From contig JAFQGG010000024.1 in the NCBI GenBank assembly GCA_017415505.1, positions 1 to 43,602 of the forward strand: a stretch of 43,602 nt of DNA, given 5' to 3'. The translations under genes and the position numbers were made by a program. Shown here piece by piece: positions 1-41,234 of the stretch. Within the stretch, counting starts at the first letter, position 1. Every line of letters begins with the position of its first letter. Source of the stretch: Clostridia bacterium (GTDB lineage Bacteria > Bacillota > Clostridia > Christensenellales > Borkfalkiaceae). The notes under the pieces are model-generated. The model made no database searches and had not been told where the DNA came from. It saw only the letters and a program-made list of their open reading frames with translations.

Positions 1-654
1 AGACATTTGATAATCAACTTGATTTGCTTTTCCAGTAGACAAATTAACGTATTGTTCTTTCTCGTAAGCATTTAATTTGGAACTTGTCTCAAGCTCACTA
101 TGACGTAAAAACTCTAAAGCAATTAGTTTAGAAATTTTATCGTAAGTATCTTCCCAAGTTGCACACTTAACATCCTTAAACGTTAAGAAGACAACTGGAT
201 ATTGACCTTGATATGCAGTGTAATAATCACCACAAGCCCATATGGCTTTATCTTTGAAATATTTAGACGTGTCTTCATCCGTTTTCTCAAAGAAAACTCT
301 AAGCATATCCATGGTTAAAGTTTTACCGAAACGACGTGGTCTTGTAAACAAAGATACTTGAGGTTTGCTATCTATGAAATCACGAATCAACAAAGTTTTG
401 TCTACGTAATAATAATCAGACGTTGCCTTCTTAAAATCGGAAATACCAATAGGCAACGGCTTTTTCTTTTTACCTTTTTGGGTATTCACGACTTTATCGG
501 TAACATTGGTTGGACATTCGGTATTTTCTGGGATCATCCAAAATTTACCTTCTTTTTTTGCCCCTGCAATCTCGCCGTTCTTACACATTTGCTGAATTCT
601 TCTCGTAGTAATTCCCCATCTTATTGAAGCTTCTTGACTGGTAATAAAGTTCAT
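1..654 (-). CDS. AAA-ATPase-like family protein with N-terminal HTH, 3' end cut by window edge
   Basis: The frame is open from an ATG at 654 to the first base of the window (218 codons, no stop). An AGGGGG ribosome binding site lies 5 bases before the ATG. Residues 1-43 look like a short MerR/excisionase-type helix-turn-helix (WGITTRRIQQMCKNGEI). From about residue 66 the protein matches the start of the AAA-ATPase-like family (often with a C-terminal PD-(D/E)XK nuclease domain): LPIGISDFKKA, then YYYVDKTLLI, then a P-loop TRPRRFGKT. These ATPases are common accessory genes in gut Firmicutes and Bacteroidetes, and their cellular role is not established. The start is supported by a consensus promoter at 684-712. 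The HTH fused to the ATPase could let the protein act on its own promoter, which carries a phased repeat array; that is inference. Confidence 0.75.
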   Translation of the reverse strand, partial: MNFITSQEASIRWGITTRRIQQMCKNGEIAGAKKEGKFWMIPENTECPTNVTDKVVNTQKGKKKKPLPIGISDFKKATSDYYYVDKTLLIRDFIDSKPQVSLFTRPRRFGKTLTMDMLRVFFEKTDEDTSKYFKDKAIWACGDYYTAYQGQYPVVFLTFKDVKCATWEDTYDKISKLIALEFLRHSELETSSKLNAYEKEQYVNLSTGKANQVDYQMS

Positions 655-683
655 ATTAACCCCCTAAGGACTTTTGTGATTTA

Positions 684-712
684 AGTATACCATGTCTAAC
701 GAAATATGTCAA
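684..712 (-). promoter_or_regulatory. Sigma-A promoter of the HTH/AAA-ATPase-like gene
   Basis: On the minus strand a perfect -35 TTGACA (707-712) is separated by 17 bases from a -10 TATACT (684-689), with the gene start at 654. The spacer contains an inverted copy of the CGAAAT unit that is repeated upstream. Confidence 0.85.
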
Positions 713-820
713 GGGCATTTCGTTATCATTTCGCCAAAATTTCGTTATCGGTTAAAAATTTCGTTTTGATTTCGTTATTATTTCGCTAAAAAGCGATAAA
801 TTTCGCCAAAACACATTTCG
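700..820. repeat. Array of ATTTCG units, partly in 11-bp phase, upstream of a promoter
   Basis: ATTTCG occurs on the plus strand at 717, 728, 739, 758, 769, 780, 800 and 815, and once inverted (CGAAAT) at 700-705 inside the promoter spacer. The first two sets of three are each spaced exactly 11 bases, about one DNA helical turn, so sites would lie on one face of the DNA. Several units extend to ATTTCGTTAT or ATTTCGCCAA. The array fills the gap between the AAA-ATPase-like promoter and the end of the signal peptidase gene. It looks like a cooperative operator or an iteron set. The binding protein is unknown. Confidence 0.8.
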
Positions 821-831
821 TTATGCTGTTT

Positions 832-1251
832 TTAAGATAAAACCTTAGCAATTATATCTTTTCCATAAACATAAGGCTCCTCCCAAAATCTGGAATCATA
901 TGAATTTTCCTTATTATCTCCCATAACAAAATATGCGCCATCAGGGACAGTAAATACCTGGTCGTTTTCCTCTATTATTTCCCCTCCAACAGCAGCAACT
1001 CTTTTCACCATTATAGTTCCATCATGTTCGAAAATAATTATATCCCCCACATTGATATCTTTATAAATTCGAACCCCGAAAATATAACTATCCGTTTTTA
1101 GCGTAGGCTCCATTGATTCGCTTGGCACATAACCTATTATAAACACAAAACGAAAAAGCAAAAACACCATAAACGCAAAAAAGACCGGTATCAAAAGCAA
1201 GCTAATCCTTTTAATACCGGTCCTACTATTTCTTTTATTATTATTCTTCAT
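832..1251 (-). CDS. Signal peptidase I, short form
   Basis: This 139-residue protein is a membrane-anchored serine/lysine protease that removes signal peptides from exported proteins. A positively charged N-terminus is followed by one membrane segment at about residues 17-40. The catalytic serine is S46 in PSESMEPTL, the general-base lysine is K83 in [10 protein letters not shown], and the conserved [11 protein letters not shown] box is at 111-121. At 139 residues it is shorter than housekeeping Gram-positive LepB (about 180) because the segment between the lysine box and the GDN box is minimal. It sits in the accessory island, so it may be a dedicated peptidase for island-encoded exports rather than the main cellular enzyme. 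The ATG at 1251 has a GAGAGGA ribosome binding site. Family call is firm, substrate unknown. Confidence 0.9.
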
Positions 1252-1284
1252 CTTATATCCTCTCCATGTAATTCACTCCATTCG

Positions 1285-1309
1285 AACTGTAAATTAATTC
1301 TTTACAGTT
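1285..1309. repeat. Perfect 9-bp inverted repeat upstream of the signal peptidase gene
   Basis: AACTGTAAA (1285-1293) and TTTACAGTT (1301-1309) are exact inverted copies around a 7-base loop, 34 bases upstream of the signal peptidase start. No T-run follows on the minus strand, so a terminator is unlikely; an operator or a leader hairpin fits better. Confidence 0.6.
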
Positions 1310-1371
1310 GCTTATTTAAACCTTCGTATGTTTAAGAAACTATAAAGAACTTATCATAATGCCTTGTAAAT

Positions 1372-1407
1372 AAAAAAGGGTTATTTGTTTTAACAACAAT
1401 CAACCCT
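1372..1407 (-). terminator. Rho-independent terminator of the RhuM gene
   Basis: Read on the minus strand, AGGGTT(GA)TTGTT pairs with AACAA(A)TAACCCT around a GTTA loop and is followed by six T. It lies 15 bases after the RhuM-family stop codon. Confidence 0.8.
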
Positions 1408-1421
1408 ACAGTTCTTATTCA

Positions 1422-2468
1422 TTATTTTTTTGTATCTTTTAATTTTAATTGATTTTCCAGCTCCAACATATACTTATCGTAATCAGACATAAACAACCTA
1501 TCTTGCACTATACGATATTTTTCAAACTCAGTTTCAGCATGAATTTTTGCAATTTCGGCAGACACTTTGCCAGCATCTTTTAACAATCCGTATTCAAACA
1601 TCTCAATAAATGCATTTAATCGAGTTTCCCAATCTGCCATGGTCAATGGTATTTTTCGAATAGCCATACTCTCAGCAAAATCAATATACGCCGACACCAT
1701 ACGATTCAACTGCTTTAACTCTGTTTCTAAAAGATAATTCTTGGCAATAGTTACATCTGATTTTTTGATTTTTCCATTTGGTGCATCCTGCCAAGATGTT
1801 AACCCCATATGCTCTTTTGTACTATCAGCTCTTTCAACTATTAATTCGGCAGCCGTGTGTCCATGTATTGCATAATGCATTTTATTTTGTACTGTAGCGT
1901 AAAAACGCTTTGTCGCAAGCGATGAAACGTCATAATCCACCGCAGTAGCATACAAATCAGTGATTTTTTGATAAAATTTTCGTTCGCTTGCACGAATTTC
2001 TCGAACACGTTCTAATTGTTCATCAAAATATTTATCTGTCAAATATGCGCCTTCTTTTAAGCGAACATCATCCATAACCCATCCCTTTATGGTATATTGA
2101 CTCGCTATTTGATTAACCCATTTGCGGAATTGAACCGCCCTTTCGGAATTCACCTTAAAACCTACAGCAATAATCATTTGCAAACTATAATGGTTTGCAT
2201 TGTACGTTTTACCATCTTCCGCAGTTATTCGAAATTTTCGAACAACTGAACTTTCCTCCAATTCATTATCCCTGAAAATCTTCTTTATATGATAATTAAT
2301 AGTATTTTTTTCAACATCATAGAGGACAGCCAACATTTTTTGTGTAAGCCATATATTTTCATCCTCATAACGAACCTCAACACTATCTTTATCGTCACCT
2401 ATAGAGGCAATATACGTAAGATATTCTGCCGTTGAGTTTCTAATAAAAATTCCCTCGTTTTGTTCCAT
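1422..2468 (-). CDS. rhuM: RhuM family protein
   Basis: The 348-residue protein matches the RhuM family along its whole length: an N-terminal block VEVRYEDENIWLTQKMLA (about 31-48), then YDVEKNTINYHIKKIF, then NHYSLQMIIAVGFKVNSERAVQFRKW, and a helical C-terminal half containing GHTAAELIVERAD. The N-terminal half resembles phage Bro/KilA-type DNA-binding regions, as judged from the TQKMLAVLYDVEKNTINYHI helix-turn-helix-like stretch. RhuM was first named from a Salmonella pathogenicity island, but its biochemical role is unknown and the family is widespread on mobile islands, often beside restriction or toxin genes. It has its own promoter (2520-2548) and terminator (1372-1407), so it is a single-gene unit. 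Confidence 0.88.
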   Translation of the reverse strand: MEQNEGIFIRNSTAEYLTYIASIGDDKDSVEVRYEDENIWLTQKMLAVLYDVEKNTINYHIKKIFRDNELEESSVVRKFRITAEDGKTYNANHYSLQMIIAVGFKVNSERAVQFRKWVNQIASQYTIKGWVMDDVRLKEGAYLTDKYFDEQLERVREIRASERKFYQKITDLYATAVDYDVSSLATKRFYATVQNKMHYAIHGHTAAELIVERADSTKEHMGLTSWQDAPNGKIKKSDVTIAKNYLLETELKQLNRMVSAYIDFAESMAIRKIPLTMADWETRLNAFIEMFEYGLLKDAGKVSAEIAKIHAETEFEKYRIVQDRLFMSDYDKYMLELENQLKLKDTKK

Positions 2469-2519
2469 TTGTTTTATCCTTTTTATTTTCTCAATAGAAT
2501 AAGACCTGTTTCTTATTTA

Positions 2520-2548
2520 ATTATATCATTCTAAATATCAAAAGTCAA
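2520..2548 (-). promoter_or_regulatory. Promoter of the RhuM gene
   Basis: On the minus strand TTGACT (2543-2548), a 17-base spacer and TATAAT (2520-2525) precede the start at 2468. Confidence 0.8.
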
Positions 2549-2584
2549 CCTAGAATTATAGACATCAGAAGACTATTATTGAGT

Positions 2585-3043
2585 TTACACCACTTTGAGT
2601 TGATAAATTTTTTTACTCTTATAAAAGTTTCTCTTTCTATTAAGCAGTTTCTTGCATTCATCAATTACTATCTGACAATAATATTCGCCAAGATATCCAA
2701 TATGCGCTTGTGAAAGTGGCGCCATAATCGTATTCGCAATCCACTGATAACATTCGTTTTTAGTCATTATGCCTTTGTTCTGTATTTTATCCAATAGCTT
2801 ATGCGCCTCTAATCGCATTGCTCTAAGCTTTGAGTTCGCTAGCGTTCCAACAGGTTTATTCGTCCCTTCATGAACTCTAACATATGCATCGCATTCAGGA
2901 TAATTTGTACAAACGTAAAGCATCACGTTTTTGTGGTTGTCTTTATAAATCCCCTCTGCACTTCTATATTCAACCGTGCTACCACAATACGGACACTTCA
3001 TAGAAGTATAATTCATTCCCTTTTTCTTCTTTTTATTTTTCAT
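2585..3043 (-). CDS. DUF3268 zinc-finger protein
   Basis: This 152-residue protein begins with a lysine-rich stretch, then a zinc-ribbon made of C17 and C20 (CPYCGS) and C45 and C51 (CTNYPECDAYV). The block VRVHEGTNKPVGTLANSKLRAMR that follows is the signature of the DUF3268 family. Members are mostly found in phages and integrated elements, where they are short DNA- or RNA-binding proteins of unknown function. The C-terminal half (about 85-152) is helical and carries no recognised motif; it is longer than the minimal family core. The gene lies behind a 250-base structured leader driven by a consensus promoter at 3307-3335. Family identity is firm; the cellular job is unknown. Confidence 0.8.
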   Translation of the reverse strand: MKNKKKKKGMNYTSMKCPYCGSTVEYRSAEGIYKDNHKNVMLYVCTNYPECDAYVRVHEGTNKPVGTLANSKLRAMRLEAHKLLDKIQNKGIMTKNECYQWIANTIMAPLSQAHIGYLGEYYCQIVIDECKKLLNRKRNFYKSKKIYQLKVV

Positions 3044-3300
3044 TATATTTATTCTCCGTTAAAATTAATAAAACCAGAGGGCAGATAATATAAAGTTTAA
3101 CCGGAATTGGCGTCCCAATATGGTTATCCTCTATATTACTCTTTTATCCCTCCGGTTCTAAATTTTTGTGCGTCATTGTGGACTCGCTCACTACGCTTGT
3201 CCGTAACGATTCCCCTTCCACTCTCTGGGAAGAGTCTTACTCTGCGAATTCTTCAAAGTATCGAAAGCCTGGACGCTAAGGGTGCTACCCTTTATTTCAT
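3044..3300 (-). other. Long structured 5' leader or small RNA before the DUF3268 gene
   Basis: Transcription from the promoter at 3307-3335 gives about 250 bases before the ATG at 3043. The RNA can form several hairpins: a 6-bp stem with a 3-base loop (3278-3292), CGTTA/TGACG plus GGAC/GTCC around 3171-3208, ATTGG/CCAAT near 3110, and two competing longer pairings in which CCGGAGGG pairs either with TTCCGG or with CCCTCTGG, the latter just before the start region. Mutually exclusive stems are typical of regulatory leaders. I do not recognise a known riboswitch or group II intron domain V here. An independent small RNA or the end of a mobile element are alternatives. Confidence 0.45.
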
Positions 3301-3306
3301 GGCATC

Positions 3307-3335
3307 ATTATAACAAAGAAAATTTTGCTTGTCAA
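3307..3335 (-). promoter_or_regulatory. Consensus sigma-A promoter of the structured leader
   Basis: On the minus strand a perfect TTGACA (3330-3335), 17-base spacer, and perfect TATAAT (3307-3312). Confidence 0.9.
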
Positions 3336-3408
3336 CTATTTTAGTGTAATTTTTTAAAATTTATTAAACCATTTTAGTTTTTACCCTTGCATCCATTTTA
3401 TTTCGGTA

Positions 3409-4575
3409 TTAGAATTTCTTCTTCTTTTTAAGAATGAAGAACACAACAGCACCAATAACACCTATGCCTGCAACCGTTGCAAGCGCAATATACTTGAAGC
3501 TATCGTTCGCTTTAATTTCAAACGTATATTCCGTTGTATTACCGCATTCATCCATAGCAACTACTCTATATTTACCGTCTTCAGTTAATTCATTGCCGAG
3601 TTCGTACAATAATTTTTCATTGTTAAGGTATACGGTTACTTCACCTTTTTCAGAAAGGTCCGTAATAGTTACTGGATTTTCAGTTTTGCCACCGTTTTCA
3701 ACGCCGTTAAGTTTAATCGTAGGTTTCGTTCCATCTACTGTAATGTTAAACGTGTAAGTTACACCCTTTGCCACTACACCGACTTCATATTCACCATCTG
3801 CAAACAACTCGAGCGTTCCATAGTTCAAACGTTTATCCTCACCATTTACAAGAACTTTTTCAAAGCCTTGCATATCGTCAAAGTTATGTTCGAATTTGCT
3901 TACAAGCGATTTAACAACCGTAAAACTCATTTCAGTTCTATTACCAATTGCATCTGTAACAACAAGCGAATATGTGCCTGGATTGGTAATGGTAGTACCC
4001 ATTTCGTAATCAATAGCAGCATCTCCCATGGTCAAGGTGTAATTTACATCTTCATTTGCAACTATAGTTACGTTGTTTGCAAGCCCCTTAGTCAAATCTT
4101 CTTGCGTCGCATAAGTCAAATAAATAACTTGATACATACTTTCACCCTTAGGCATTTTCTGCAAGACACTTATTGCCTCATTCACCAATTCTAAAACCAT
4201 TCTGGTCTTTTCAATGCTTGCTAATTTCCTGTCCAGTTTTTTATTTCCAAACGCTAATTCACCATCAACGCGAGCCAAGAGTCTATCAACATTCTCTAAC
4301 GGTTGAGCAAGTTCCGTTGCAATAAATTCAGGAAAACATTCAACTAACCAAACTATTTTTTTATAATTTCTAAGTAGTAATCCAGTGTTATGAAACGCCT
4401 TTGGCATCTTATTATTCTTAAAGTCTTGCAGAACTTCATCAACTTTCTTAGTATCGCCAGTAAGTGTACCATCCAAGAACAACCTTAAAAAATCCGAATA
4501 TTCTTGTTTCATTACATTAATTTCTTTGGACATTTCTGCCTTTCTCATTTCATTAGTTTCTTTTTTTTCTTTCAT
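3409..4575 (-). CDS. Chimeric protein: phage-regulator-like helical N-terminus joined to surface-protein C-terminus with membrane anchor
   Basis: The 388-residue product has two unlike halves. Residues 1-165 are charged and helical and end in MYQVIYLTYATQEDLT, which resembles the C-terminal part of RinA/ArpU-type phage late-transcription regulators (typically about 140 residues). From about 168 the sequence turns into beta-rich Ig-like repeats (for example TNPGTYSLVVTDAIGNRTEM and EDGKYRVVAMDECGNTTEY), then one membrane segment (about 361-382) and a KKKKKF tail, as in Gram-positive extracellular proteins. There is no signal peptide, so export of the Ig part is doubtful. The ATG at 4575 has a good AAGGAGA site and overlaps the stop of the upstream gene (ATGA), so translation is coupled. 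A recombination-made fusion is the simplest reading. Function is not known. Confidence 0.6.
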   Translation of the reverse strand: MKEKKETNEMRKAEMSKEINVMKQEYSDFLRLFLDGTLTGDTKKVDEVLQDFKNNKMPKAFHNTGLLLRNYKKIVWLVECFPEFIATELAQPLENVDRLLARVDGELAFGNKKLDRKLASIEKTRMVLELVNEAISVLQKMPKGESMYQVIYLTYATQEDLTKGLANNVTIVANEDVNYTLTMGDAAIDYEMGTTITNPGTYSLVVTDAIGNRTEMSFTVVKSLVSKFEHNFDDMQGFEKVLVNGEDKRLNYGTLELFADGEYEVGVVAKGVTYTFNITVDGTKPTIKLNGVENGGKTENPVTITDLSEKGEVTVYLNNEKLLYELGNELTEDGKYRVVAMDECGNTTEYTFEIKANDSFKYIALATVAGIGVIGAVVFFILKKKKKF

Positions 4576-5612
4576 TGCTGATTCTCCTTATCGTGTAAAT
4601 CCGGAGACACGCAAGGACCACGTATTTTATTTAGTTCAATAATCTCTCCTCTAAGTAATATATAATATTCTTTGCAGTCATAACTAATTTTAACGTCTTT
4701 CCAACACGGAGAAATATACGCGCGTATTATATAATGAAAAAGTGCAACGCTATTTTTTTCTCTCTCATTAATAACTAGACTCGCAAATTCCTCTTCCATT
4801 GTTTCGATAAGATTCCCCAGATTCCCGTGAGCACAATCTACGTTCCTATCTTCCAATGTTTGTCTTATTTTCAAAATCGCTTCAATTACTTCTAACTGGT
4901 TTGGTAATACTATACTTTTACTAATCGGATACAACTTATTGAATAATAAACAACCGTAAGTTCCGGGAAGACGGTATAATTCAAACACCTCCTTATTCTT
5001 TTGGAAAAATCTCCACGTTTTTGTCTTTTCCCAGCCCCAGCGTTTACTAAGTGTCTCCAATGATAAGAAGACATTCAATTCTTGAAACCTTACCATTGGA
5101 GCAAAAAAAGTTAAAAAATTTTTTTTATCTTCATAAATTGTATGAATCCAAAGGTCTAACCACGCATCTGATTCGCCAAATTTATACCCATTATTTACAA
5201 GACGTTCAGTGATATTTCTCGGTACGCAAAGAAAACCGTAATCGTTAGTAGCATAAGTATTGTCGTTTAGACATTCTTTTCCTGAACGTTCGACAACCCA
5301 GTCATTTATCTTATAGGTTAATTTTTTAGTTTGAACGTCAACGTTGTAGGTTATATACCCAAATCTATTAAGTTCATCCATAACTTGCATCGCCTTTTCT
5401 TTTGACTTAATTCCAAGAATACTCTTTAATCCCATAATGCCACCAACCCATTCACCAGGATTTACTTCATTGGTGTGACCACAATAAAAGGATTGCCCTT
5501 TTCTAAAGGCAACCCTTGCGGCAAGTTTCATCCAATACCCCATAATTCCTTTCTTTTGAGGTATAATTTTGCGTGGTAATTTCACCCACTTAAATTTCAT
5601 CAAACAACTCAT
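4572..5612 (-). CDS. Winged-helix replication/regulatory protein of mobile-element type
   Basis: A 346-residue protein with no catalytic motif. The N-terminal 110 residues (FKWVKLPRKII, later GGIMGLKSILGIKSKEKAMQVMDELNRFGYITY) have the pattern of the winged-helix domain in phage and plasmid replication initiators and similar element proteins: a helix pair plus a wing that senses or binds DNA. The middle has a second such unit (LSLETLSKRWGWEKTKTWRFF, about 188-210). Two winged helices in tandem are usual for Rep-type initiators. The ATG at 5612 has an AGGAGG site 4 bases away. It is translationally coupled by a 4-base overlap to the chimeric gene downstream. Replication initiator versus transcription regulator cannot be decided from sequence alone. 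Confidence 0.5.
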   Translation of the reverse strand: MSCLMKFKWVKLPRKIIPQKKGIMGYWMKLAARVAFRKGQSFYCGHTNEVNPGEWVGGIMGLKSILGIKSKEKAMQVMDELNRFGYITYNVDVQTKKLTYKINDWVVERSGKECLNDNTYATNDYGFLCVPRNITERLVNNGYKFGESDAWLDLWIHTIYEDKKNFLTFFAPMVRFQELNVFLSLETLSKRWGWEKTKTWRFFQKNKEVFELYRLPGTYGCLLFNKLYPISKSIVLPNQLEVIEAILKIRQTLEDRNVDCAHGNLGNLIETMEEEFASLVINEREKNSVALFHYIIRAYISPCWKDVKISYDCKEYYILLRGEIIELNKIRGPCVSPDLHDKENQQ

Positions 5613-5630
5613 AAAGCCTCCTTTTGAAAA

Positions 5631-5662
5631 TAAAAAAAGACAGAACTTTTTAATTCTGCCTT
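5631..5662 (-). terminator. Terminator after the DUF4143 ATPase gene
   Basis: On the minus strand AAGGCAGAA pairs with TTCTGTCTT (one G-T pair), followed by a run of seven T, 38 bases after the ATPase stop codon. Confidence 0.8.
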
Positions 5663-5700: not shown

Positions 5701-6996
5701 TTATTTAATGCAAAACGCTGCGTAAAGTGGAACTGATTTTATACCGTTTTCAAATCCGAAATTCTTCATTGATAATCGGATTGAATAAGCTGGAGCGTAT
5801 TTACCATTATAAACGGACAAGCTTCTTGAACGAGTATTATCCGAAGATTTTACCTCAACAGGAACAATTTCTTCATTAACTCTTACAATAAAATCTATTT
5901 CCGCTTGATTTCCGCTAGTCCAATAATATAAATCAAAACCATTACTTGTAAATTGATTAAATACGTAATTTTCAGTTAACCCGCCCTTGAAATTATATAA
6001 CAAAGGATTGTCGCGCTGAATATCATCAAAATGTATGTCTTGACTTGCACCACAAAGCCCAACGTCGTTCATATAGAACTTAAAATCTGATAAAGATCTA
6101 TAAGCGTTTAACGGTAAAGCAATTTGTTCTATACGATATAACTGACTTGCAACACCTGCCAAACACAACCACTCTATTGCGCTTTCAAATTCAGAAGCGC
6201 GACCGCCTGATTTCACATACTTGTATTGGAACTTTTTATTCTCTTTAGCAAGTTGGGTACTAATATTTTTATAGACAATCTTAGTTTTAGGAATTTCAGA
6301 CTGTTTATTATATTTACCCATATCGTTTTGATACGATTCCAAAATAGTTTGTTGCGCTATTCTTACCATTTCAGCATTTTTATTCTTGATATAATTTTCA
6401 ACCACTTCTGGCATACCGCCAACGAATAAATACTCTTTATAATAATCAAGCGCTCGTTCGTGAAAAAGCGTATCTAATGGTGTGTCGCTTGTGTAACAAT
6501 CTTTAATCTGTCCTACCAAATACTCTTCCCCTTTTGCGAGCAAGTATTCTTCAAAATCCATAGGATACATTGTTAAAAATTGCACTTTCCCAACGGGGAA
6601 TGAAAAATTGCCACGATTTACTGAGACGCCTAATAATGAGCCAAGTGCAACGATATGGTATTCATTCGCTTCCTCATTAAAATACTTTAAAGAAGTAATT
6701 GCTTGTGGGCAAGACTGAATTTCATCAAAAATAATCAAAGTATCTTTCGGCAAAATTTCCTTGCGTTTATAATTCGCCAATTTACGAATTATATTTTCAG
6801 GATTCAAATCTGTAAAGAAATCCTCTAAACCCTTTTCTTTCTCAAAATTACAATAAATATAATTTTGATACTCATTACCGGCAAAATAATTGACTATATA
6901 CGTTTTGCCTACTTGTCTTGCTCCCTGTAAGATTAATGGTTTACGAGCCTCACTATTCTTCCAGTTCAATAAATCTTGATAAATTTTACGTTCCAT
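5701..6996 (-). CDS. AAA ATPase with DUF4143 C-terminal domain
   Basis: A 431-residue P-loop ATPase of the AAA_14/DUF4143 type. The Walker A motif GARQVGKT is at 25-32, Walker B LIIFDEIQ at 87-94, and the sensor region HIVALGSLLGVS follows. The C-terminal domain contains WTSGNQAEIDFIV and IVPVEVKSSDNTRSRSL, the E-D-ExK pattern of a PD-(D/E)XK nuclease-like fold. Such proteins are abundant stand-alone accessory genes in anaerobes; no defined function is established, though nuclease or defence roles have been proposed. Own promoter (7018-7046), ribosome binding site GGAGGG, and terminator (5631-5662) make it a one-gene unit. Length is normal for the family, so it looks intact. Confidence 0.88.
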   Translation of the reverse strand: MERKIYQDLLNWKNSEARKPLILQGARQVGKTYIVNYFAGNEYQNYIYCNFEKEKGLEDFFTDLNPENIIRKLANYKRKEILPKDTLIIFDEIQSCPQAITSLKYFNEEANEYHIVALGSLLGVSVNRGNFSFPVGKVQFLTMYPMDFEEYLLAKGEEYLVGQIKDCYTSDTPLDTLFHERALDYYKEYLFVGGMPEVVENYIKNKNAEMVRIAQQTILESYQNDMGKYNKQSEIPKTKIVYKNISTQLAKENKKFQYKYVKSGGRASEFESAIEWLCLAGVASQLYRIEQIALPLNAYRSLSDFKFYMNDVGLCGASQDIHFDDIQRDNPLLYNFKGGLTENYVFNQFTSNGFDLYYWTSGNQAEIDFIVRVNEEIVPVEVKSSDNTRSRSLSVYNGKYAPAYSIRLSMKNFGFENGIKSVPLYAAFCIK

Positions 6997-7107: not shown

Positions 7108-8007
7108 TTAAAATTCGTAAAATCTCTTTGATTCTTCATCGTCATAAATTTCAAAGAAAGTCTTATCGTCAATTGAATTAAAATCGAAGAGCTTATTTTG
7201 AAAGTCTTCTACTCGTTTGGAATCTTTCCCATATTTGACCAAGGTATGACCTTCTTCAATTAATGCCTGTTCTTGTGTTTCCCTTGAACATTTTATAGTC
7301 TCTTGCAAAACACCACGCGTCGATATCTCTCTCCAATATGGAATAGTAAACATTATATCCGTACTAAACTCCCATTCTGAATCACCCTTAAATAATGCGA
7401 ATGAAACGTATTCAACGTTTAACTTTTTTGCAACGTACGTCTCAATATCTTCCCTTCTTGCAAGTTTACCATTTGGTACCAATTTTAATAATTTATAATA
7501 TACCTTAAAGGAAACTTTTTTAATTGGCTTCGGCGCAATATACTCATCGGGTTTCATTGCCCCATTCATTATTTCAGCCAATCTGTTATTAAAGACGTCA
7601 CCCAATTTGGTCAACTTCAAGAACGACGTCGAATGAATCGGGTTTCCTAAAAGAAAAGATTTTATCGTATTGACCGAAAGCGTGGTTTTCTGACTTACCC
7701 TTGAAACAGCCTCTCCTGTTTTTTCCATATAGTAAACCAATGCAGTTCTAACCTGTGCCATACCCTCTTCGTATTGAGCATCACTTACATACCCGATAGG
7801 ATCATCTTTTTTAAATCGCGTAATAATATCGCCATAATCACAATTAAAGAAATTACAAATTTTATCAATCGTTTCTATTGACACATATTCTCCTTGCATC
7901 ATACGTGAAATTGAATTTGGCGCAATGTCACAAGCTTCAGCAAGTGCTTTTTGCGTAATATTATTATCGTCCATAAGTTTGCGTAATCCATAGTAGAAAA
8001 TCGGCAT
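7108..8007 (-). CDS. XRE-family regulator with two HTH units and an alkyltransferase-like C-terminal domain
   Basis: The 299-residue protein starts with a clear XRE/Cro helix-turn-helix (residues 5-62: LRKLMDDNNITQKALAEACDI, NSISRMMQGE). A second, weaker HTH-like unit spans about 84-148 (VSRVSQKTTLSVNTIKSFLLG). Residues 165-275 fit the pattern of O6-alkylguanine transferase/ATL domains: FKVYYKLLKLVPNGKLARREDIE, then IPYWREISTRG where the transferases have the PCHRV active-site loop, then QEQALIEEGHTL. The reactive cysteine is absent, as in the non-enzymatic ATL proteins that recognise alkylated DNA. I infer a damage-responsive repressor of the island, but no known homologue confirms it. A consensus promoter (8037-8066) and AAGGAGAG site precede the ATG at 8007. 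Confidence 0.6.
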   Translation of the reverse strand: MPIFYYGLRKLMDDNNITQKALAEACDIAPNSISRMMQGEYVSIETIDKICNFFNCDYGDIITRFKKDDPIGYVSDAQYEEGMAQVRTALVYYMEKTGEAVSRVSQKTTLSVNTIKSFLLGNPIHSTSFLKLTKLGDVFNNRLAEIMNGAMKPDEYIAPKPIKKVSFKVYYKLLKLVPNGKLARREDIETYVAKKLNVEYVSFALFKGDSEWEFSTDIMFTIPYWREISTRGVLQETIKCSRETQEQALIEEGHTLVKYGKDSKRVEDFQNKLFDFNSIDDKTFFEIYDDEESKRFYEF

Positions 8008-8036: not shown

Positions 8037-8066
8037 ATTATAGCATAAAAAAAGCCCTATTGTCAA
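8037..8066 (-). promoter_or_regulatory. Promoter of the XRE regulator
   Basis: On the minus strand TTGACA (8061-8066), 18-base spacer, TATAAT (8037-8042). The -35 lies in one arm of the large dyad at 8047-8109, so hairpin, operator and promoter overlap. Confidence 0.8.
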
Positions 8067-8109
8067 CTATATACCGTAATTAGATTGTTGACATTTTAGG
8101 CTTTTTTTT
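8047..8109. terminator. Large dyad with A/T flanks: bidirectional terminator or operator at the island edge
   Basis: AAAAAAAGCC, then TGTCAAC (8061-8067), is mirrored by GTTGACA (8087-8093) and GGCTTTTTTT (8099-8108). Transcripts from either side would form a long stem followed by a T-run. It stands 23 bases after the stop codon of the interrupted PBP frame, so it would end PBP transcription before the island. Confidence 0.65.
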
Positions 8110-8132
8110 GTTAAAAATCGGCTATTTTTTTG

Positions 8133-9734
8133 TCAAGTATGTATTTTAATAAGATTTTTAACAAGATTTACACAAGTTGTCAGAATATCACCCGTTTTTC
8201 CACAAATACCGTATCCTTCCAAAAACGCCCGTTTTCCGCTCCCGTCGCGCACTACGCCTTCCAACATTTTCGCAAGCGTGCGCGAGGTTTCCACGCTGAC
8301 CGTCCTATTTTTCAAAACGGGCTTCGTTTCTTTTAACACGTAGCCGTCGTCTGCGTATATCCGTTTCACCAAACGGGGCGTGTAATAATATCCGCCGTTT
8401 ACGGCGGATGCCGTCGCGCAAGCAAGTTGTAAGCCCGAAACGGCTATCGTTTGCCCAAAGCCGATACGCGCCAAGTCGCAATCGCGTACGGCTTTTTGCG
8501 GTAGCAACAAGCCGTACGCCTCGCCCCCGTAATCAATCCCCGTTTTTCGCCCAAACCCAAACGCCGACAAGTACTCGTAGAACTTTTCGCTTCCGAGCGC
8601 CAACGCCATATCCGTGAAGCACGGGTTACAACTGTTATTTAATGCTTCCGCGAGCGTTTGATTGCTATGTTTGCCGTTTGCGTGATTACTCCAACACTTG
8701 ACCGTCGTCCCGTCCACCGCGCGCGTTCGGGAGCTTGAAAAGACGTAATTGGGCGAATACGCATTCGGATTCCCTCTTGCGTACTCCTCTAAATTCGCCG
8801 CGGAAGTAATTATTTTGAAAGTAGACCCCGGCTCGTAAATATCGCAAACGACCGTATTTCTCGACTGCTTATTCAGCGTTTCCGCATCGTTTCGCGGTAC
8901 GCTGTTCAAATCGTAACAGGGGTAATTGGCAAGCGCGAGAATTTCAAACGAATTTATATCGAGCACGATACATTCCGCCGAGGCGGGAGAAGAGGTGGCG
9001 ATCACCTTTTCCAACGCGCTCTCGACGATTTCCTGTATCCCGTAATCCACGGTTAATTCTATATTATATCCGTCCTCCGCCGGCAAATAGGTGGCAACGC
9101 TACCCTCTATTTCCACCCCCACGAGGTCCGTTTCGTACAACAGTTCGCCGTTCTTTCCAGCCAAATACTCCTCGTAATATTTCTCCACGCCCGTCGTACC
9201 CACGTTATCTACCGAAGTAAAGCCAAGTACTTGGCACAGCGCGTCGCCCTTGGGATAAACGCGCACGTTATCGCGGGAATAATATACGCCGTCCAAGGAA
9301 AGAACGGAAAGCGCTTCCACTTTTTCTTTCACGAGTCGTTTCGCCAAAGTAACCTCGGAGGCTTTCTTTTTCGTCAATTTCTCATAAACCCAATTCGCGT
9401 CCAAATCCAACGCGTCCGCAAGCAACGCGGACGCGCTTTCTTTGTCCTTTATCGCGTTACTGCGGGCAAACACCGTATACGCAGCCTCGTTATCCGCGAG
9501 TACGACGCCGTTTCTATCGGTAATCTTCCCCCGTTTCGCCACGATTGGAATTTCGCGCGTCCATTGATCCAAAGCGCGGTAATTCAATTCTTCTTGCCAA
9601 ATTACTTGCACGTAGAAAAAACGGGCGACGAGCGCGCAAAAAAGAAAGGTTATCGCCGCGCTTACGGCAAATAACCTCTTTCGTAAAATGGATATTGAAA
9701 ATTGACTTTTCTCTTTAATAGACCGTTTTATAAT
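8133..9734 (-). CDS. Class B penicillin-binding protein (SpoVD/FtsI type), 3' end lost at island junction
   Basis: This is a peptidoglycan transpeptidase for division or spore cortex. Upstream of a GTG at 9611 the same frame encodes a membrane segment (LFAVSAAITFLFCALVA), so translation must start earlier. The only position fitting the AAGAGGAG site is an ATT codon at 9734, 6 bases after it, giving 533 residues. The dimerisation domain opens with IPIVAKRGKITDRNGVVLADN. Active-site motifs are present: EPGSTFKII (SxxK), NNSCNP (SxN) and CGKTG. Directly after KTG the family sequence stops and 18 unrelated residues lead to a stop at 8133, so the last strands of the transpeptidase and any PASTA domain are missing. 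Order after ftsL fits ftsI or spoVD; the lost C-terminus prevents a choice. As it stands it is probably inactive. Confidence 0.85.
   Translation of the reverse strand: MIKRSIKEKSQFSISILRKRLFAVSAAITFLFCALVARFFYVQVIWQEELNYRALDQWTREIPIVAKRGKITDRNGVVLADNEAAYTVFARSNAIKDKESASALLADALDLDANWVYEKLTKKKASEVTLAKRLVKEKVEALSVLSLDGVYYSRDNVRVYPKGDALCQVLGFTSVDNVGTTGVEKYYEEYLAGKNGELLYETDLVGVEIEGSVATYLPAEDGYNIELTVDYGIQEIVESALEKVIATSSPASAECIVLDINSFEILALANYPCYDLNSVPRNDAETLNKQSRNTVVCDIYEPGSTFKIITSAANLEEYARGNPNAYSPNYVFSSSRTRAVDGTTVKCWSNHANGKHSNQTLAEALNNSCNPCFTDMALALGSEKFYEYLSAFGFGRKTGIDYGGEAYGLLLPQKAVRDCDLARIGFGQTIAVSGLQLACATASAVNGGYYYTPRLVKRIYADDGYVLKETKPVLKNRTVSVETSRTLAKMLEGVVRDGSGKRAFLEGYGICGKTGDILTTCVNLVKNLIKIHT
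8146..8169. repeat. Tandem 12-bp direct repeat beside the island junction
   Basis: TTAATAAGATTT (8146-8157) is followed directly by TTAACAAGATTT (8158-8169), 11 of 12 identical. Next to it is the 9-bp palindrome ACAAGTTGT (8172-8180) and then the junction at about 8189. Arm-type and core-type recombinase sites often look like this; that role is inference. Confidence 0.55.
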
Positions 9735-9768: not shown

Positions 9769-10407
9769 TTAGTCTTGCGCTTGAATCATTCCTTTCGAAG
9801 TCGCATATTCGCGAATCGTTTCCTCCGATTGCGCCGCTTTTATCCGCTCTTGCAATTCCGCGTACTCTTCTTGCAATTCCTGTCTTTGGTTTTCAAGGTT
9901 ACGGATTTTCGCCGTTTTCCCGTTGATAATTTGCGTGTTTATACCGATCACGGTCAACATGATCGTAACCACCGACCCAAAGATCGCCAACGCTTTTTTC
10001 GCGGCGGAAGAAAGCGTGTAGCTCTCTTCAACCGTTTCCGTGGCAACGGGTTGATACACCCCTACCTGCATAGGCGCAACGGGCGAAGGCGCGTATACGG
10101 GCGCGGAAATAGTTGCCGTCGCGTTTTGAATTCCCTCGAATTTTTCCGTCGTGAAAACGGGCGTTTCAATGCGCGGGCGCACGTATTCCGTCACTTGGGG
10201 CGTTTGTTGCATCGTCCGCGTTTCTTTTACGGGCGCGGGCGCAACGGGCGCGCTTACAGACGCGCGAACTTGCGATTCGCCCGTAGCAAATTGATCGGCT
10301 TCCGCATCTTGCAATCTGCGAAACCTTTCGCTTATCATAGAATTATGTAATTGCGCCTCGTTTTCCACAACGGGCGTTTGCGTTCTTTCCATTTCCAAAG
10401 TAGCCAT
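9769..10407 (-). CDS. ftsL: FtsL-like cell division protein with long proline-rich cytoplasmic tail
   Basis: The 212-residue protein lies between rsmH and the PBP gene, the standard ftsL position in the dcw cluster. It is bitopic: residues 1-130 are cytoplasmic and rich in P, A, V and T, one membrane segment lies at about 138-158 (ALAIFGSVVTIMLTVIGI), and a coiled coil follows (NLENQRQELQEEYAELQERIKAA), ending in a short IREYATSKGM segment typical of FtsL/DivIC proteins. FtsL works with DivIC and DivIB in the divisome; a DivIC-like partner is encoded at 40314-40592. FtsL of Bacillus is about 117 residues, so the long N-terminal tail is unusual. Sequence identity in this family is low, so the call leans on topology and position. 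Confidence 0.75.
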   Translation of the reverse strand: MATLEMERTQTPVVENEAQLHNSMISERFRRLQDAEADQFATGESQVRASVSAPVAPAPVKETRTMQQTPQVTEYVRPRIETPVFTTEKFEGIQNATATISAPVYAPSPVAPMQVGVYQPVATETVEESYTLSSAAKKALAIFGSVVTIMLTVIGINTQIINGKTAKIRNLENQRQELQEEYAELQERIKAAQSEETIREYATSKGMIQAQD

Positions 10408-10475: not shown

Positions 10476-11414
10476 TTATATCTTTTCCGCGATACGCAAT
10501 TTTGCGCACTTGCTTCTTGAATTTTCTTCCGTTTCCGCTACGCTTGCCGTAATCGGCTTTTTCGTTATGATTTTAATTTCCGGTTTCTTCCCGCATACGC
10601 ACACGGGGAAATTCCCGGGGCAACGGCAAGGATTTTCAAGATACCGAAACGCTTCTTTTACGATTCTATCCTCCAACGATTGAAAGGTGAGAATTACGAT
10701 TCTACCGCTTTTTTTCAATCTTCTCGTCAAAGAAAGCGTCAATTCGTACAACCCGTCCAGCTCGCCGTTTACCTCGATGCGCAAGGCTTGAAAGCTTTTT
10801 CTCTCGCAAGGCGCGCCGTAGCGGAACTTTGCGGGAATACTGTTTCTAATAATCTCGGCAAAATCCCCCGACGTTTTCAAAGGCTTGTACACGCGTTGTT
10901 TTACGACGTTTCTTGCAATTTGCTTAGCAAAGGTTTCTTCGCCGTACATTTTGAGGATTCGCGCAAGCTTGTCCTCGTCGTAGGTATTCAAAACGATCTC
11001 CGCCGTCAACGGTGCGCTTCTATCCATACGCATATCCAACGGCGCTTCCGCCATGCGATAGGAAAAACCGCGCTCCTCGTCGTCGATTTGATGCGAGGAA
11101 ATCCCAAAATCGAGGATCGCTCCGTCGATTTTATCAATTCCCGCCTTTTCAAATACCCGCTCGTAATCTTTATAATTGGATTTATAAATTTCAAATCTTC
11201 CGTTAAACGGCGAAAGGCGCTTGCTCGCGGCTTCTATCGCCTCGTCGTCGAGGTCTGTTGCAATCAACTTACCGCTCGGCGAAGTTCTTTTGAGTATCTC
11301 GTAAGAGTGCCCGCCACCGCCAACCGTGCCGTCGAACCAGACCCCGCCCTCTTTCAAGGCAAGTCCTTCCATACATTCTTCCAGCATAACGGGTTTGTGC
11401 GAAAACTCCAACAT
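10476..11414 (-). CDS. rsmH: 16S rRNA (cytosine-1402-N4)-methyltransferase RsmH
   Basis: RsmH (MraW) methylates N4 of C1402 in the ribosomal P site using S-adenosylmethionine. The 312-residue protein has family-typical length and motifs: HKPVMLEECMEGL at the start, the SAM-binding loop DGTVGGGGHSYEIL (about 29-42), LIATDLDDEAIEAA, and LDFGISSHQIDDEERGFSYR (about 103-122). The C-terminal part has AKFRYGAPCERKSFQALRIEVNGEL and the CRCPGNFPVCVCG cysteine cluster. It starts 6 bases after mraZ ends and is in the same operon. Confidence 0.97.
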   Translation of the reverse strand: MLEFSHKPVMLEECMEGLALKEGGVWFDGTVGGGGHSYEILKRTSPSGKLIATDLDDEAIEAASKRLSPFNGRFEIYKSNYKDYERVFEKAGIDKIDGAILDFGISSHQIDDEERGFSYRMAEAPLDMRMDRSAPLTAEIVLNTYDEDKLARILKMYGEETFAKQIARNVVKQRVYKPLKTSGDFAEIIRNSIPAKFRYGAPCERKSFQALRIEVNGELDGLYELTLSLTRRLKKSGRIVILTFQSLEDRIVKEAFRYLENPCRCPGNFPVCVCGKKPEIKIITKKPITASVAETEENSRSKCAKLRIAEKI

Positions 11415-11420
11415 CTCTTT

Positions 11421-11846
11421 TTATATCCCCAATTTTTTTAATTCCGAATCGTAATCAAGATTCTCTATATATTCGTAATATTTTTCAGCAGCCCAAATTT
11501 CTAAGCGCTTTCCCCTGCCGAGGGTTACGATATCCTTTTTGATTCCCGCCATTTTGCGTAGCGCCGTGGGCAATACCACCCGTCCTTGCGCGTCCTCTTC
11601 CGCTGAGAATATACTCCCGAAAAACATCAACGAGGCTTCGCTTGACTCGGATATGCTTTCCGAACTCAAATATTCCAGCTTCTCGTCCAAAATATCGTCG
11701 GACATAACGCAAATGCAATTTTTCATTCCTCGGAAAAAGCTATACGTTTTTTCCCCGTGCTCCCCCGTCAATTCCTTTTTGAACTTGGAGGGAATACGCA
11801 AGCGGTTCTTGTCGTCAAGTTGATGTTCGAATACGCCCTTGAACAT
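11421..11846 (-). CDS. mraZ: MraZ, transcriptional regulator of the dcw cluster
   Basis: MraZ is a ring-forming DNA-binding protein of the AbrB-like fold that regulates the division and cell-wall cluster it heads. The 141-residue length is normal. Two DXXXR-type motifs are visible: FEHQLDDKNRLRIPSKF (about 6-22) and EEDAQGRVVLPTALR (about 82-96). First gene of the operon mraZ-rsmH-ftsL-PBP, with a good AGGAGGGAG site and a consensus promoter at 11903-11932. In other bacteria MraZ binds repeats in its own promoter; the region here has no obvious repeat array. Confidence 0.95.
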   Translation of the reverse strand: MFKGVFEHQLDDKNRLRIPSKFKKELTGEHGEKTYSFFRGMKNCICVMSDDILDEKLEYLSSESISESSEASLMFFGSIFSAEEDAQGRVVLPTALRKMAGIKKDIVTLGRGKRLEIWAAEKYYEYIENLDYDSELKKLGI

Positions 11847-13491: not shown

Positions 13492-14025
13492 ATGGATTTA
13501 GGCGGAAAAATAAAACAAATGCGAAACCAATTAGGTTTAACGCAAGAAGAACTTGCAGACAGGTGCGAACTTACGAAGGGATATATCTCCCAGCTCGAAA
13601 ACAACCTTAACAGCCCTTCGATTGCAACGCTCACGGATATACTTTCCGCGCTCGGTAGCAATCTCGCAGAATTTTTCCAAGAGGAAACGGAAGAAAAAGT
13701 CGTTTTTTCTAAGGAAGAATTTATCGAAAAGGACTCGGACGGCGTGCGTTGGAATTGGCTGATCCCCAACGCGCAAAAAAATATGATGGAACCCGTACTC
13801 GTCGAGCTTTCCGAAAACGCGTCCACCGCGAGTGACGTTGCGCACGACGGCGAAGAGTTCGGCTACGTCTTGGAGGGAAAAATCGCTATCGTGCTCGGCA
13901 ACAAGCGTCATATTTGCAAAAAGGGCGAAGCGTTTTACTATTCGGCAAGCAAACCGCACTCCATTCTAAACAGGAATCGAGGCAATTCAAAGTTCCTTTG
14001 GGTATCTACCCCACCCACCTTCTAA
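13492..14025 (+). CDS. XRE/cupin transcriptional regulator of polyamine uptake (PuuR-like)
   Basis: The 177-residue protein has an N-terminal XRE HTH (about 5-60: IKQMRNQLGLTQEELADRCELTKGYISQLENN) and a C-terminal cupin (about 95-175: EEFGYVLEGKIAIVLGNKRHICKKGEAFYYSASKPHS) that binds a small ligand. This HTH-cupin layout directly upstream of potABCD is common in Firmicutes and resembles PuuR of Escherichia coli, which responds to putrescine. The open frame extends upstream to 13450, but the GGAGG site at 13481-13485 is 6 bases from the ATG at 13492, so this start was chosen. It is first gene of the operon, so it probably autoregulates. Confidence 0.88.
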   Translation: MDLGGKIKQMRNQLGLTQEELADRCELTKGYISQLENNLNSPSIATLTDILSALGSNLAEFFQEETEEKVVFSKEEFIEKDSDGVRWNWLIPNAQKNMMEPVLVELSENASTASDVAHDGEEFGYVLEGKIAIVLGNKRHICKKGEAFYYSASKPHSILNRNRGNSKFLWVSTPPTF

Positions 14026-40313: not shown

Positions 40314-40592
40314 TTACTCTCCCTCCGGAAGCACGAATCCGTTTTGAATCGCCAACCATTCTTTTCCAATGACTGATTCATAAAATTCCGCATCCATTTT
40401 TTTCTCGTCGATTATTTGTTGAAGCTGTGCGTTTTCCTCTTCTAACCTTTCTTCGCGGGCGTTTAACACCCCGATCGTAATCCATTGATAAATCAAAACG
40501 GCGAGCAAAAGGACGAAAAGGGTCGTTGCCGCTACGGCGATCGCCGTAATCAATTTTCTCATTTTTTCTTGTGTCATAGTCGTTTTTTCCAT
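40314..40592 (-). CDS. divIC: DivIC/FtsB-like septum formation initiator
   Basis: A 92-residue bitopic protein: short cytoplasmic N-terminus, one membrane segment (about 15-37) and a leucine-zipper-like coiled coil (REERLEEENAQLQQIIDEKKMD), ending with the GKEWLAIQNGFVLP segment typical of DivIC/FtsB. It would pair with the FtsL-like protein (9769-10407). Position after yabP-yabQ is the same as in Bacillus subtilis. The ribosome binding site is weak, and the start lies inside the 3' part of the yabQ frame, so translational coupling is likely. Confidence 0.85.
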   Translation of the reverse strand: MEKTTMTQEKMRKLITAIAVAATTLFVLLLAVLIYQWITIGVLNAREERLEEENAQLQQIIDEKKMDAEFYESVIGKEWLAIQNGFVLPEGE

Positions 40593-40980
40593 ATTCTTTG
40601 CGTTTTAATTTCTCTTTTTTATGAAGTTCCCTTTGATTTTTCGCCTTTTTTACTAGTTTTGCAACCTTATTATAGCATAGATTTTCAAAAAATGCAACTA
40701 TTCTTCGCAAAGTTTTCAAATATATTATTCCGCCGACGGCGTATCCGAGCCAAATATAAGCGCGAAAACTCGGAAATCGCAACGCAAAAGACGAAAAAAT
40801 ACTCAAAAGCGCAAACGCTAACCAAAACAAAACGTCAAATACGATTCCTATTTTTGCGTTTTTTCCGCGGTGACAACCAAACAGCAGTCTTAAAAACGCA
40901 AACGGCTCGTATACGATCCCCCCAACGAAGCCCACAACCACGGCAAGCGAGAATACGGCAAGTTGATTTTGCGTATCCAT
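40378..40980 (-). CDS. yabQ: Spore cortex protein YabQ
   Basis: YabQ is a membrane protein needed for spore cortex formation. The first about 125 residues hold four membrane segments (VFSLAVVVGFVGGIVYEPFAFLRLLFG in parts, FDVLFWLAFALLSIF, FRAYIWLGYAVGGIIYL) and the RELHKKEK tail, consistent with the family. The frame then stays open for 71 more residues that are highly basic (KRPRRKVRRGKRT) and lie out of phase over divIC for 215 bases. Either the natural stop was lost or a frameshift lies near 40600. The start shares one base with the yabP stop (TAATG). Confidence 0.85.
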   Translation of the reverse strand: MDTQNQLAVFSLAVVVGFVGGIVYEPFAFLRLLFGCHRGKNAKIGIVFDVLFWLAFALLSIFSSFALRFPSFRAYIWLGYAVGGIIYLKTLRRIVAFFENLCYNKVAKLVKKAKNQRELHKKEKLKRKEYGKNDYDTRKNEKIDYGDRRSGNDPFRPFARRFDLSMDYDRGVKRPRRKVRRGKRTASTNNRREKNGCGIL

Positions 40981-41234
40981 TATCGGAAGAGTTTTGCCGC
41001 GAAGCCTTTTCCCCCGTAGGAAACGCCGACCGCGTTCCCTTCCGCCGTAAAAGTTCCGTTCGTTTTGGAAAACGCCGTAATCTTCAAATCGCTACCCGAA
41101 ATATGCAATCGTTCCCCGCCGACGAGCACGAGCACGATTTTGATTTCGGAAAACGCAACTACGCTTTCCACAGCCGTTACCGCAATATTTTTCCGTTGTT
41201 CAATCGTTATCGAATGTTTACCGTTTTCTTGCAT
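40980..41234 (-). CDS. yabP: Spore coat/cortex protein YabP
   Basis: An 84-residue protein of the YabP/YqfC family, needed for spore cortex or coat assembly in Bacillus. Beta-rich sequence with motifs VESVVAFSEIKIVLVLVGGERLHISGSDLKI (in parts, about 22-52). The order yabP-yabQ-divIC matches Bacillus, and indicates a spore former. It starts 28 bases after the TtcA gene, with only a weak ribosome binding site. Confidence 0.88.
   Translation of the reverse strand: MQENGKHSITIEQRKNIAVTAVESVVAFSEIKIVLVLVGGERLHISGSDLKITAFSKTNGTFTAEGNAVGVSYGGKGFAAKLFR

Follow-up and report, generated by a model that had tools for sequence, protein, structure and literature searches.

Mobile elements with paired serine recombinases appear to use the KTG codons of a spoVD-type penicillin-binding protein gene as attachment site in gut Clostridia

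The window analysed here, a stretch of 43,602 bases that makes up the entire contig C8 of the Clostridia bacterium assembly GCA_017415505.1 (JAFQGG010000024.1), carries a class B penicillin-binding protein (PBP) gene of the spoVD type that is broken off directly after its KTG active-site motif, where a mobile element begins. Very probably this is one member of a family of mobile elements whose paired large serine recombinases (LSRs) use the KTG DNA of spoVD as bacterial attachment site (attB), integration truncating SpoVD and its reversal restoring the gene. Genomes, contigs within a genome and loci are labelled G, C and L, respectively, and the genome of the window is G000 (assembly completeness 93.9%).

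A sequence-only reading of the window had described a PBP gene of the dcw (division and cell wall) cluster that is intact through SxxK, SxN and KTG, after which family similarity ends at once and an AT-rich island begins, and the profile searches agreed. The open reading frame (ORF) at 8133-9611 (minus strand) was matched by both PF03717 and PF00905, the PF00905 match ending at profile position 240 of 299, which is KTG, and GC content dropped from 0.47–0.51 across the PBP to 0.32–0.36 in the island windows. Host sequence ends with the two bases 8191-8192, the GG in the glycine codon of KTG. The start of the 5′ part was set at the GTG of the ORF list, the open frame running further upstream. 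The cluster was recognised as dcw because mraZ, mraW and a weakly matching FtsL/DivIC-like gene sit upstream of the PBP, and yabP and yabQ, which the reading had reported from this genome, were both confirmed in the window.

Because the window is the complete contig C8, the far end of the island had to be sought elsewhere in the genome. A PF00905 search of G000 gave three matches, namely the window gene, a protein on C28 that is a class A PBP (best model PBP_1a_fam) and a C-terminal piece at C4:5643-5828; a second class B PBP was not found by this search. The sequence-only reading had proposed looking for the missing 3′ part and for a recombinase at the other end of the island, and contig C4 holds both, with two LSR genes ahead of a PBP 3′ part at C4:5643-5855 (plus strand), which covers profile positions 236-298 in frame. 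Joined at the GG, the host parts of G000 gave a frame of 540 residues with no internal stops, reading GKTGTAQKF across the junction; since the cut is clean to the base pair, departure of the element would restore the gene. A C-terminal PASTA domain is a trait of many SpoVD proteins. The 3′ part of G000 stops 71 residues after the match start and so has no room for one, and PASTA-like tails were read by eye in the 3′ parts of other hosts.

For comparison with close relatives, a set of 57 congeners was used, the window's own genome included. The 5′ part was matched in 44, of which 40 were kept; G069 and G076 were dropped as fragments or weak matches, G075 for a frameshift and G079 because its contig ends within the gene. 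In 29 of the 40 the PBP runs on intact, with the GG present in every allele, and in 11 it stops at residue 474, at the same base pair, in keeping with the earlier suggestion that KTG is the target of a site-specific recombinase. G072 is a twelfth case, seen from its right end only, which belongs to the element family of the window. By their left junctions the elements formed family A (G000, G013, G019, G028, G061 and G068) and family B (G014, G035 and G073), with G063 and G064 standing apart. On a tree of 43 PBPs (G075 left out; G081 and G086 as outgroups that carry no split label though they are also split), the split label required nine changes, gains or losses, at least seven of them forced by well-supported branches, and its scatter was close to that of shuffled labels (125 of 500 shuffles as low). 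SxxK, SxN and KTG were kept in all 20 KTG-cut 5′ parts, without a stop within the last 440 codons, so the 5′ parts are free of visible decay, for which recent insertion alone could account.

Two observations concern individual junctions. In G028, G019, G061 and G072 the junction contigs break off 80-138 bases inside the element, a pattern that one element end present in several contexts of the sample (a circle or other hosts) might produce. G014 (L077, L078) has two insertion ends from different element families, which suggests that two elements accreted in one site; its island also contains an array resembling clustered regularly interspaced short palindromic repeats (L078, reverse strand, about 22-717), with a 36-base repeat in 11 exact copies at a 66-base period.

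The position of the crossover was read from the element ends. When right and left ends were joined, the arms formed a palindrome centred on the glycine-codon GG of KTG, and among 25 offsets GG was the sole best symmetry centre in 12 of 14 end pairings, the G083 right end being paired with both G083 left ends; these 12 fall into four lineages by our own grouping and are therefore not 12 independent tests. In a control without G014 and G090, the 38 pairings within lineages all scored at least 10 (mean 12.2), compared with a mean of 7.4 and a maximum of 13 for 106 pairings across lineages, so that the ranges overlap. The base before GG was G in five and A in six of the 11 congener 5′ junctions, G in 18 and A in 11 of the 29 intact alleles, and A in all six right ends from the genus; the base after GG was T in ten of 11 left junctions (G in G064) and variable at right ends. 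This flanking-base pattern places the crossover at the GG.

Relatives in other hosts were sought with a profile of the second recombinase (LSR2) built from two congeners, which found 14 loci in the genome collection, three of them in genomes already in the congener set (L159 = G035, L169 = G014, L170 = G063). The hosts are gut Clostridia, apart from L165-L168 (Bacilli) and L161 (Firmicutes). Downstream of the recombinases a PBP 3′ tail starting at KTG was present in 11 of the 14 loci (L158, L159 and L161-L169), with other genes in between in L167 and L168; L160 stops at a contig edge with no tail visible. All 11 genomes reached from 12 of the 14 loci contain a cut class B PBP, G084 showing a 3′ tail alone and G091 being a case cut at SxN with a separate 3′ tail; the remaining PF00905 matches in these genomes look like class A enzymes by length and profile range. 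Element and both PBP halves lie on one contig in G090 (5.6 kb), G086 (9.5 kb), G089 (11.2 kb) and G087 (about 37 kb), so the interruption is no assembly break. Spo0A of 258-289 residues was detected in nine of the ten of these genomes searched, G091 being without it. L171 (Acholeplasmatales) has a recombinase pair that is less closely related (29% and 37% identical) and lies between halves of a spoVD-like PBP gene cut at the codons beside SxN (positions 2500-2700 and 13700-13760). The joined ends there were symmetric about the AA of the asparagine codon in 15 of 24 positions, the next best centre reaching 11, with the core chosen after inspection; Spo0A was not detected in this host.

Some further features of these genomes were recorded. 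Class B PBP 5′ parts occur twice in G083 (on C113 and C75), in each case ending at KTG with an element of one shared lineage, which points to either two genes or a mixed bin. In G084, G085 and G086 several short frames of 130-166 amino acids (aa) match Spo0A_C beside the full-length Spo0A. G091 has a further PBP 3′ tail starting at KTG (C41:2575-2772), in the 2.5 kb before which no recombinase ORF was recognised.

Near-identical elements in diverged hosts indicate that the elements move. G013 and G068 share 99.9% identity across 6,402 bases of their left ends, against 70.6% for the host PBP DNA; the G000 and G013 elements share 93.4% over 4,101 bases (host PBP DNA 72.2%), and the right ends of G087 and G088 share 97.7% over 6,249 bases (alignable host flank 66%). 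The G013 element encodes a TraG P-loop protein, together with a PrgI-like match that narrowly misses the cut-off, and looks conjugative from its gene content. The smallest element, in G090, has the small protein, the recombinase pair, two further ORFs and an ATPase that looks similar to the DUF4143 ATPase of G089. We regard the family as horizontally mobile, with at least one conjugative-looking member and others that are small. A phage origin was considered and rejected, as viral contigs gave one weak match (30%) to the recombinase profile and none to two junction patterns; all matches to phage and plasmid records were below 60% identity, the ten best of each lying at 21.8-29.5%.

The sequence-only reading had left open whether the interrupted gene is spoVD or ftsI. 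Among NCBIfam models the window 5′ part fitted spoVD_pbp (TIGR02214) best, with 422 bits compared with 263 for MrdA and 170 for FtsI; the score is below the cut-off of 688 for the full-length protein because the query is a gene part. The same model ranked first for all six split PBPs tested, one of them an SxN case, again always below the full-length cut-off. The gene is therefore spoVD-like, and a role in sporulation is predicted by homology. Most genomes of the genus have two PF00905 proteins among the matches listed, one class A and one class B by profile range. A single SEDS protein was found in nearly every positive genome (44/57), G003 having two partial matches on different contigs, and MreB was strongly matched in 54 of 57 congeners, two further weak matches being probably DnaK. 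Spo0A was detected in 35 of the 57 (34 above cut-off), in 11 of 12 high-quality genomes and in eight of the 11 split congeners, and SpoIVA in 53 (52 above cut-off) and in ten of the 11 split ones; absences are no proof here because completeness spans 58% to 96%. In Clostridioides difficile, spoVD and spoVE mutants grow normally and lack cortex, and expression of spoVD begins as sporulation sets in and precedes asymmetric division (PMC10693644). SpoVD catalysis is essential there for the cortex and partly dispensable for asymmetric division, and inactive SpoVD still helps division (PMC12713402).

From position 1 to 5656, contig C4 carries a sigma-70 region 4 protein, a helix-turn-helix (HTH) gene, a small protein, LSR1, LSR2 and a short resolvase-domain ORF, followed by the PBP 3′ part, and is low in GC up to the PBP piece. 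LSR1 and LSR2 measure 545 and 499 aa and both contain PF00239 (Resolvase N-terminal) and PF07508 (Recombinase); the resolvase-domain ORF measures 104 aa. The small protein of about 56-75 residues directly before LSR1 was recognisable in 13 of 14 elements inspected (found by eye in G083a and G089; the G014 and G063 versions only 20-25% identical to the first), and G091 has an unlike small ORF at its position. An alignment of 11 had a mean column identity of 39% and one invariant column, and no fitting Pfam family was found. We consider it a candidate directionality factor. A TnpW-like identity was dropped, as it had no Pfam support in ten proteins.

Palindromes of the ACTAWAATAGT type precede the small protein in seven of 13 elements, in two to three copies in five of them, where at most 0.017 per region were expected. 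A TTGAC-TATAAT promoter overlaps a palindrome in four elements, the pattern calling none in G000, and a divergent HTH gene lies nearby in G000, with a similar-looking ORF in G035. Sporulation sigma factor sites were scanned with simple patterns in the 330 bases before the small ORF of 13 regions, after a scan of 260 bases before LSR1 had covered mostly the small ORF itself and given single matches in three of 12 regions (sigma-H-like in G085, sigma-F/G-like in G089 and G090), none consistent. The repeated scan gave five sigma-E-like matches against 1.4 expected (G083b, G087, G088, G089 and G090), of which G087 and G088 are near copies and that of G090 lies in host DNA, and which are not consistent in place; two sigma-F/G-like matches against 1.8 expected; and no sigma-H or sigma-K matches. 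Outward promoters at the right element end did not exceed shuffles (5 against 4.6, both strands). We take this layout as mainly vegetative, repressor-type control, which would speak against a strict analogy with skin, while the sigma-E-like excess leaves room for that analogy. In SP-beta and in the skin element of C. difficile, the recombinase is constitutive and the recombination directionality factor (RDF) is regulated (PMC5595907).

The proposed mechanism is as follows. Acting on a circular form of the element, the paired recombinases would insert it at the glycine-codon GG of KTG and so truncate SpoVD directly after that motif; with a directionality factor, the reverse reaction would excise the element and restore spoVD exactly and in frame. 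The linked recombinases presumably perform the reaction, and the small protein encoded before them may control its direction. Since the role of SpoVD lies in sporulation, vegetative cells would put up with the insertion; to make a spore, a carrier would have to excise the element.

Several results weigh against this scheme. C8 and C4 are not physically joined in the assembly, and the full size and contents of the G000 element are not given by it, the element measuring at least about 13.8 kb with its middle part missing. Most end pairings combine ends from different contigs, the G014 ends tie or do not match each other, and G090 is without a centred palindrome. Neither an excised circle nor an empty site in the same genome was found, and the family A pattern for the element attachment site (attP) occurred in none of the 57 congeners. 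The 3′ part was undetected in six of the 11 split congeners (G013, G019, G061, G063, G064 and G068), and among the 12 high-quality congeners only G013 and G063, both split, are without it. At L170, in G063, a truncated LSR2 joins mraY (MraY signature) at about 10897, the PBP 3′ part and murE not being found there, which is a deletion or a misassembly. On the murE contigs of G013, G061 and G064, other genes lie upstream with no PBP tail over 6.3, 10.2 and 1.9 kb, so that the 3′ part may have been lost permanently in these three. That the tail is missing near murE is not decisive, because G000 and G014 also carry unrelated genes between tail and murE: in G000 the PBP piece on C4 is followed by a rhamnosidase-like, a lipase-like and a second rhamnosidase-like gene (L004 6065-10737), then by a Mur ligase that was taken for murE and, further on, by a SEDS gene.

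As to what the insertion means for the host, the balance tips somewhat towards an ordinary mobile parasite, which would have settled on a conserved and vegetatively dispensable target, excise for transfer when its repressor is released, independently of sporulation, and leave carriers that sporulate poorly or not at all. A promoter arrangement of the repressor type, accompanied in the element of the window by a divergent HTH gene, points this way, as do the conjugation-type proteins in G013, the scattered and apparently recent insertions, the 3′ parts that some carriers may have lost and the common habit of LSRs of hitting conserved coding sites (PMC10083194). Alone, this account leaves unexplained why the cuts fall in spoVD-type genes of mostly Spo0A-bearing hosts, an objection eased by the fact that few hosts have another class B PBP to hit.

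Conceivable, though on present evidence unlikely, is a developmental switch, in which the element would excise during sporulation as skin, SP-beta and gin do, probably in the mother cell before cortex synthesis, and so rebuild spoVD. The spoVD-type target, hosts mostly with Spo0A and within the genus with SpoIVA, the exact and in-frame excision predicted for G000, the open 5′ halves with active-site motifs kept in 20 of 20 and the sigma-E-like excess are consistent with it, and known intervening elements also use serine recombinases (PMC5595907). It is opposed by the repressor-type palindromes, joined in four elements by a vegetative-type promoter, that precede the operon, by the lack of a consistent sporulation-sigma site across the family and by the undetected 3′ parts. 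Expression of spoVD before asymmetric division, as in C. difficile (PMC10693644), is a further difficulty, since excision at that time would strip the element from the spore; the partial dispensability of SpoVD catalysis for asymmetric division (PMC12713402) would allow late excision in the mother cell. More doubtful still is a wider reading as a DNA switch, in which the sole class B PBP gene would be a docking site for rival elements, vegetative cells would grow and divide without a working class B PBP, on their one class A enzyme, mother-cell excision would rebuild SpoVD for the cortex, and the KTG codons (SxN in one relative) would be recombination sites.

It is improbable that the truncated protein is itself functional, or that the two halves complement each other, with no excision needed. 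Such a protein would have lost the C-terminal part of the transpeptidase fold, and the element-encoded tails differ between families. SxxK, SxN and KTG are retained in the 5′ part and catalytically inactive SpoVD of C. difficile still aids asymmetric division, but the cortex needs catalysis in that species (PMC12713402). An assembly artefact or a dead paralogue is very improbable: the G000 halves are on different contigs and several congener contigs end within 140 bases of the junction, yet four genomes have both halves and the element on one contig, the junction base pair is identical in many separate bins, no second class B PBP was found in G000, and the outcomes that the sequence-only reading had named against itself (an assembly break, no 3′ part or recombinase, a dead paralogue) did not occur as it had put them.

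The features of the window are compiled in the table below. An Rfam search of six sources gave the DUF3268 RNA as the sole match.

Table 1. Features of the window, contig C8 of G000 (positions in bases of the window).
Feature	Position	Strand	Remark
Left portion of the mobile element, truncated by the contig end	1..8190	-	continues, possibly not directly, as G000:C4:1-5656
AAA-ATPase_like protein	1..654	-	cut by contig end
Signal-peptidase-like protein (Peptidase_S26)	832..1251	-	
RhuM-family protein	1422..2468	-	
DUF3268 zinc-finger protein	2585..3043	-	
DUF3268 RNA motif RF02966	3170..3276	-	78 bits; upstream of DUF3268 gene
Element protein	3409..4575	-	weak BiPBP_C match below cut-off
Element protein	4572..5612	-	without Pfam match
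AAA_14/DUF4143 ATPase of the element	5701..6996	-	same Pfam pair also in G089 element
XRE/Cro-type HTH protein of the element	7108..8007	-	
Element-encoded tail of truncated PBP frame and left element end	8133..8190	-	half of attP
Inferred crossover dinucleotide GG	8191..8192	-	core of attL (left attachment site); centre of palindromic attP
5′ part of spoVD-type class B PBP (dimerisation domain; transpeptidase with SxxK, SxN, KTG)	8191..9611	-	ends at GG of KTG glycine codon
FtsL/DivIC-like dcw gene upstream of PBP	9769..10407	-	weak matches, below cut-off
mraW (rsmH)	10476..11414	-	
mraZ	11421..11846	-	
YabQ	40378-40980		
YabP	40980-41234		

With this element family, spoVD would join the few sporulation genes known to be interrupted by removable elements. 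Across two bacterial classes, several attP lineages converge on a single base pair within catalytic codons. A dcw class B PBP, usually the sole one found, that is interrupted in 11 of 40 congeners is also a natural experiment on whether class A PBPs suffice for growth, and is relevant to the suggestion that FtsW/FtsI are missing from many Clostridia (PMC10693644). Lastly, the elements would supply new paired serine recombinases with defined attachment sites, as predicted from their sequences.

Among known systems, CcrA/CcrB of the staphylococcal cassette chromosome (SCC) is likewise encoded by two adjacent LSR genes, and CcrB was the best NCBIfam match of LSR1; with 96 bits against a cut-off of 900, the LSRs described here are by score not members of the Ccr families, and the target gene is another. 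Integrative and conjugative elements (ICEs) with LSRs of the Tn4451/TndX type resemble G013-like elements in combining conjugation-type proteins with LSRs; the present elements are distinct in having several attP lineages at a single coding base pair. ICEBs1 has an integration system, by integrase class, that differs from that of the spoVD elements. It has likewise been found integrated in spoVD, in Bacillus subtilis, as a laboratory secondary site from which excision was undetectable (PMC3715440), and this was the only mobile element in spoVD returned by a literature search, most subscription journals being outside its reach.

Intervening elements have been described in sigK, spsM, spoVFB, gerE and yabG (PMC10747680, PMC5595907); spoVD does not occur in the main text of PMC10747680. 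The elements skin (sigK), SP-beta (spsM), vfbin (spoVFB) and yin (yabG) share with the present family the insertion in a sporulation gene and its recombinase-mediated restoration, and differ in being described as prophage-like and in their target genes (PMC10747680). Also comparable is gin, in gerE of Bacillus cereus ATCC10987, a non-viral element in a sporulation gene with three serine recombinases, including the two-gene operon girAB, whose precise excision restores the gene (PMC5595907). Its excision in sporulation by GirC and the RDF GirX, with girAB dispensable, was shown experimentally (PMC5595907). In the spoVD elements, where excision timed to sporulation would be hypothetical, the recombinase pair sits near the element end in most cases, and the target is spoVD.

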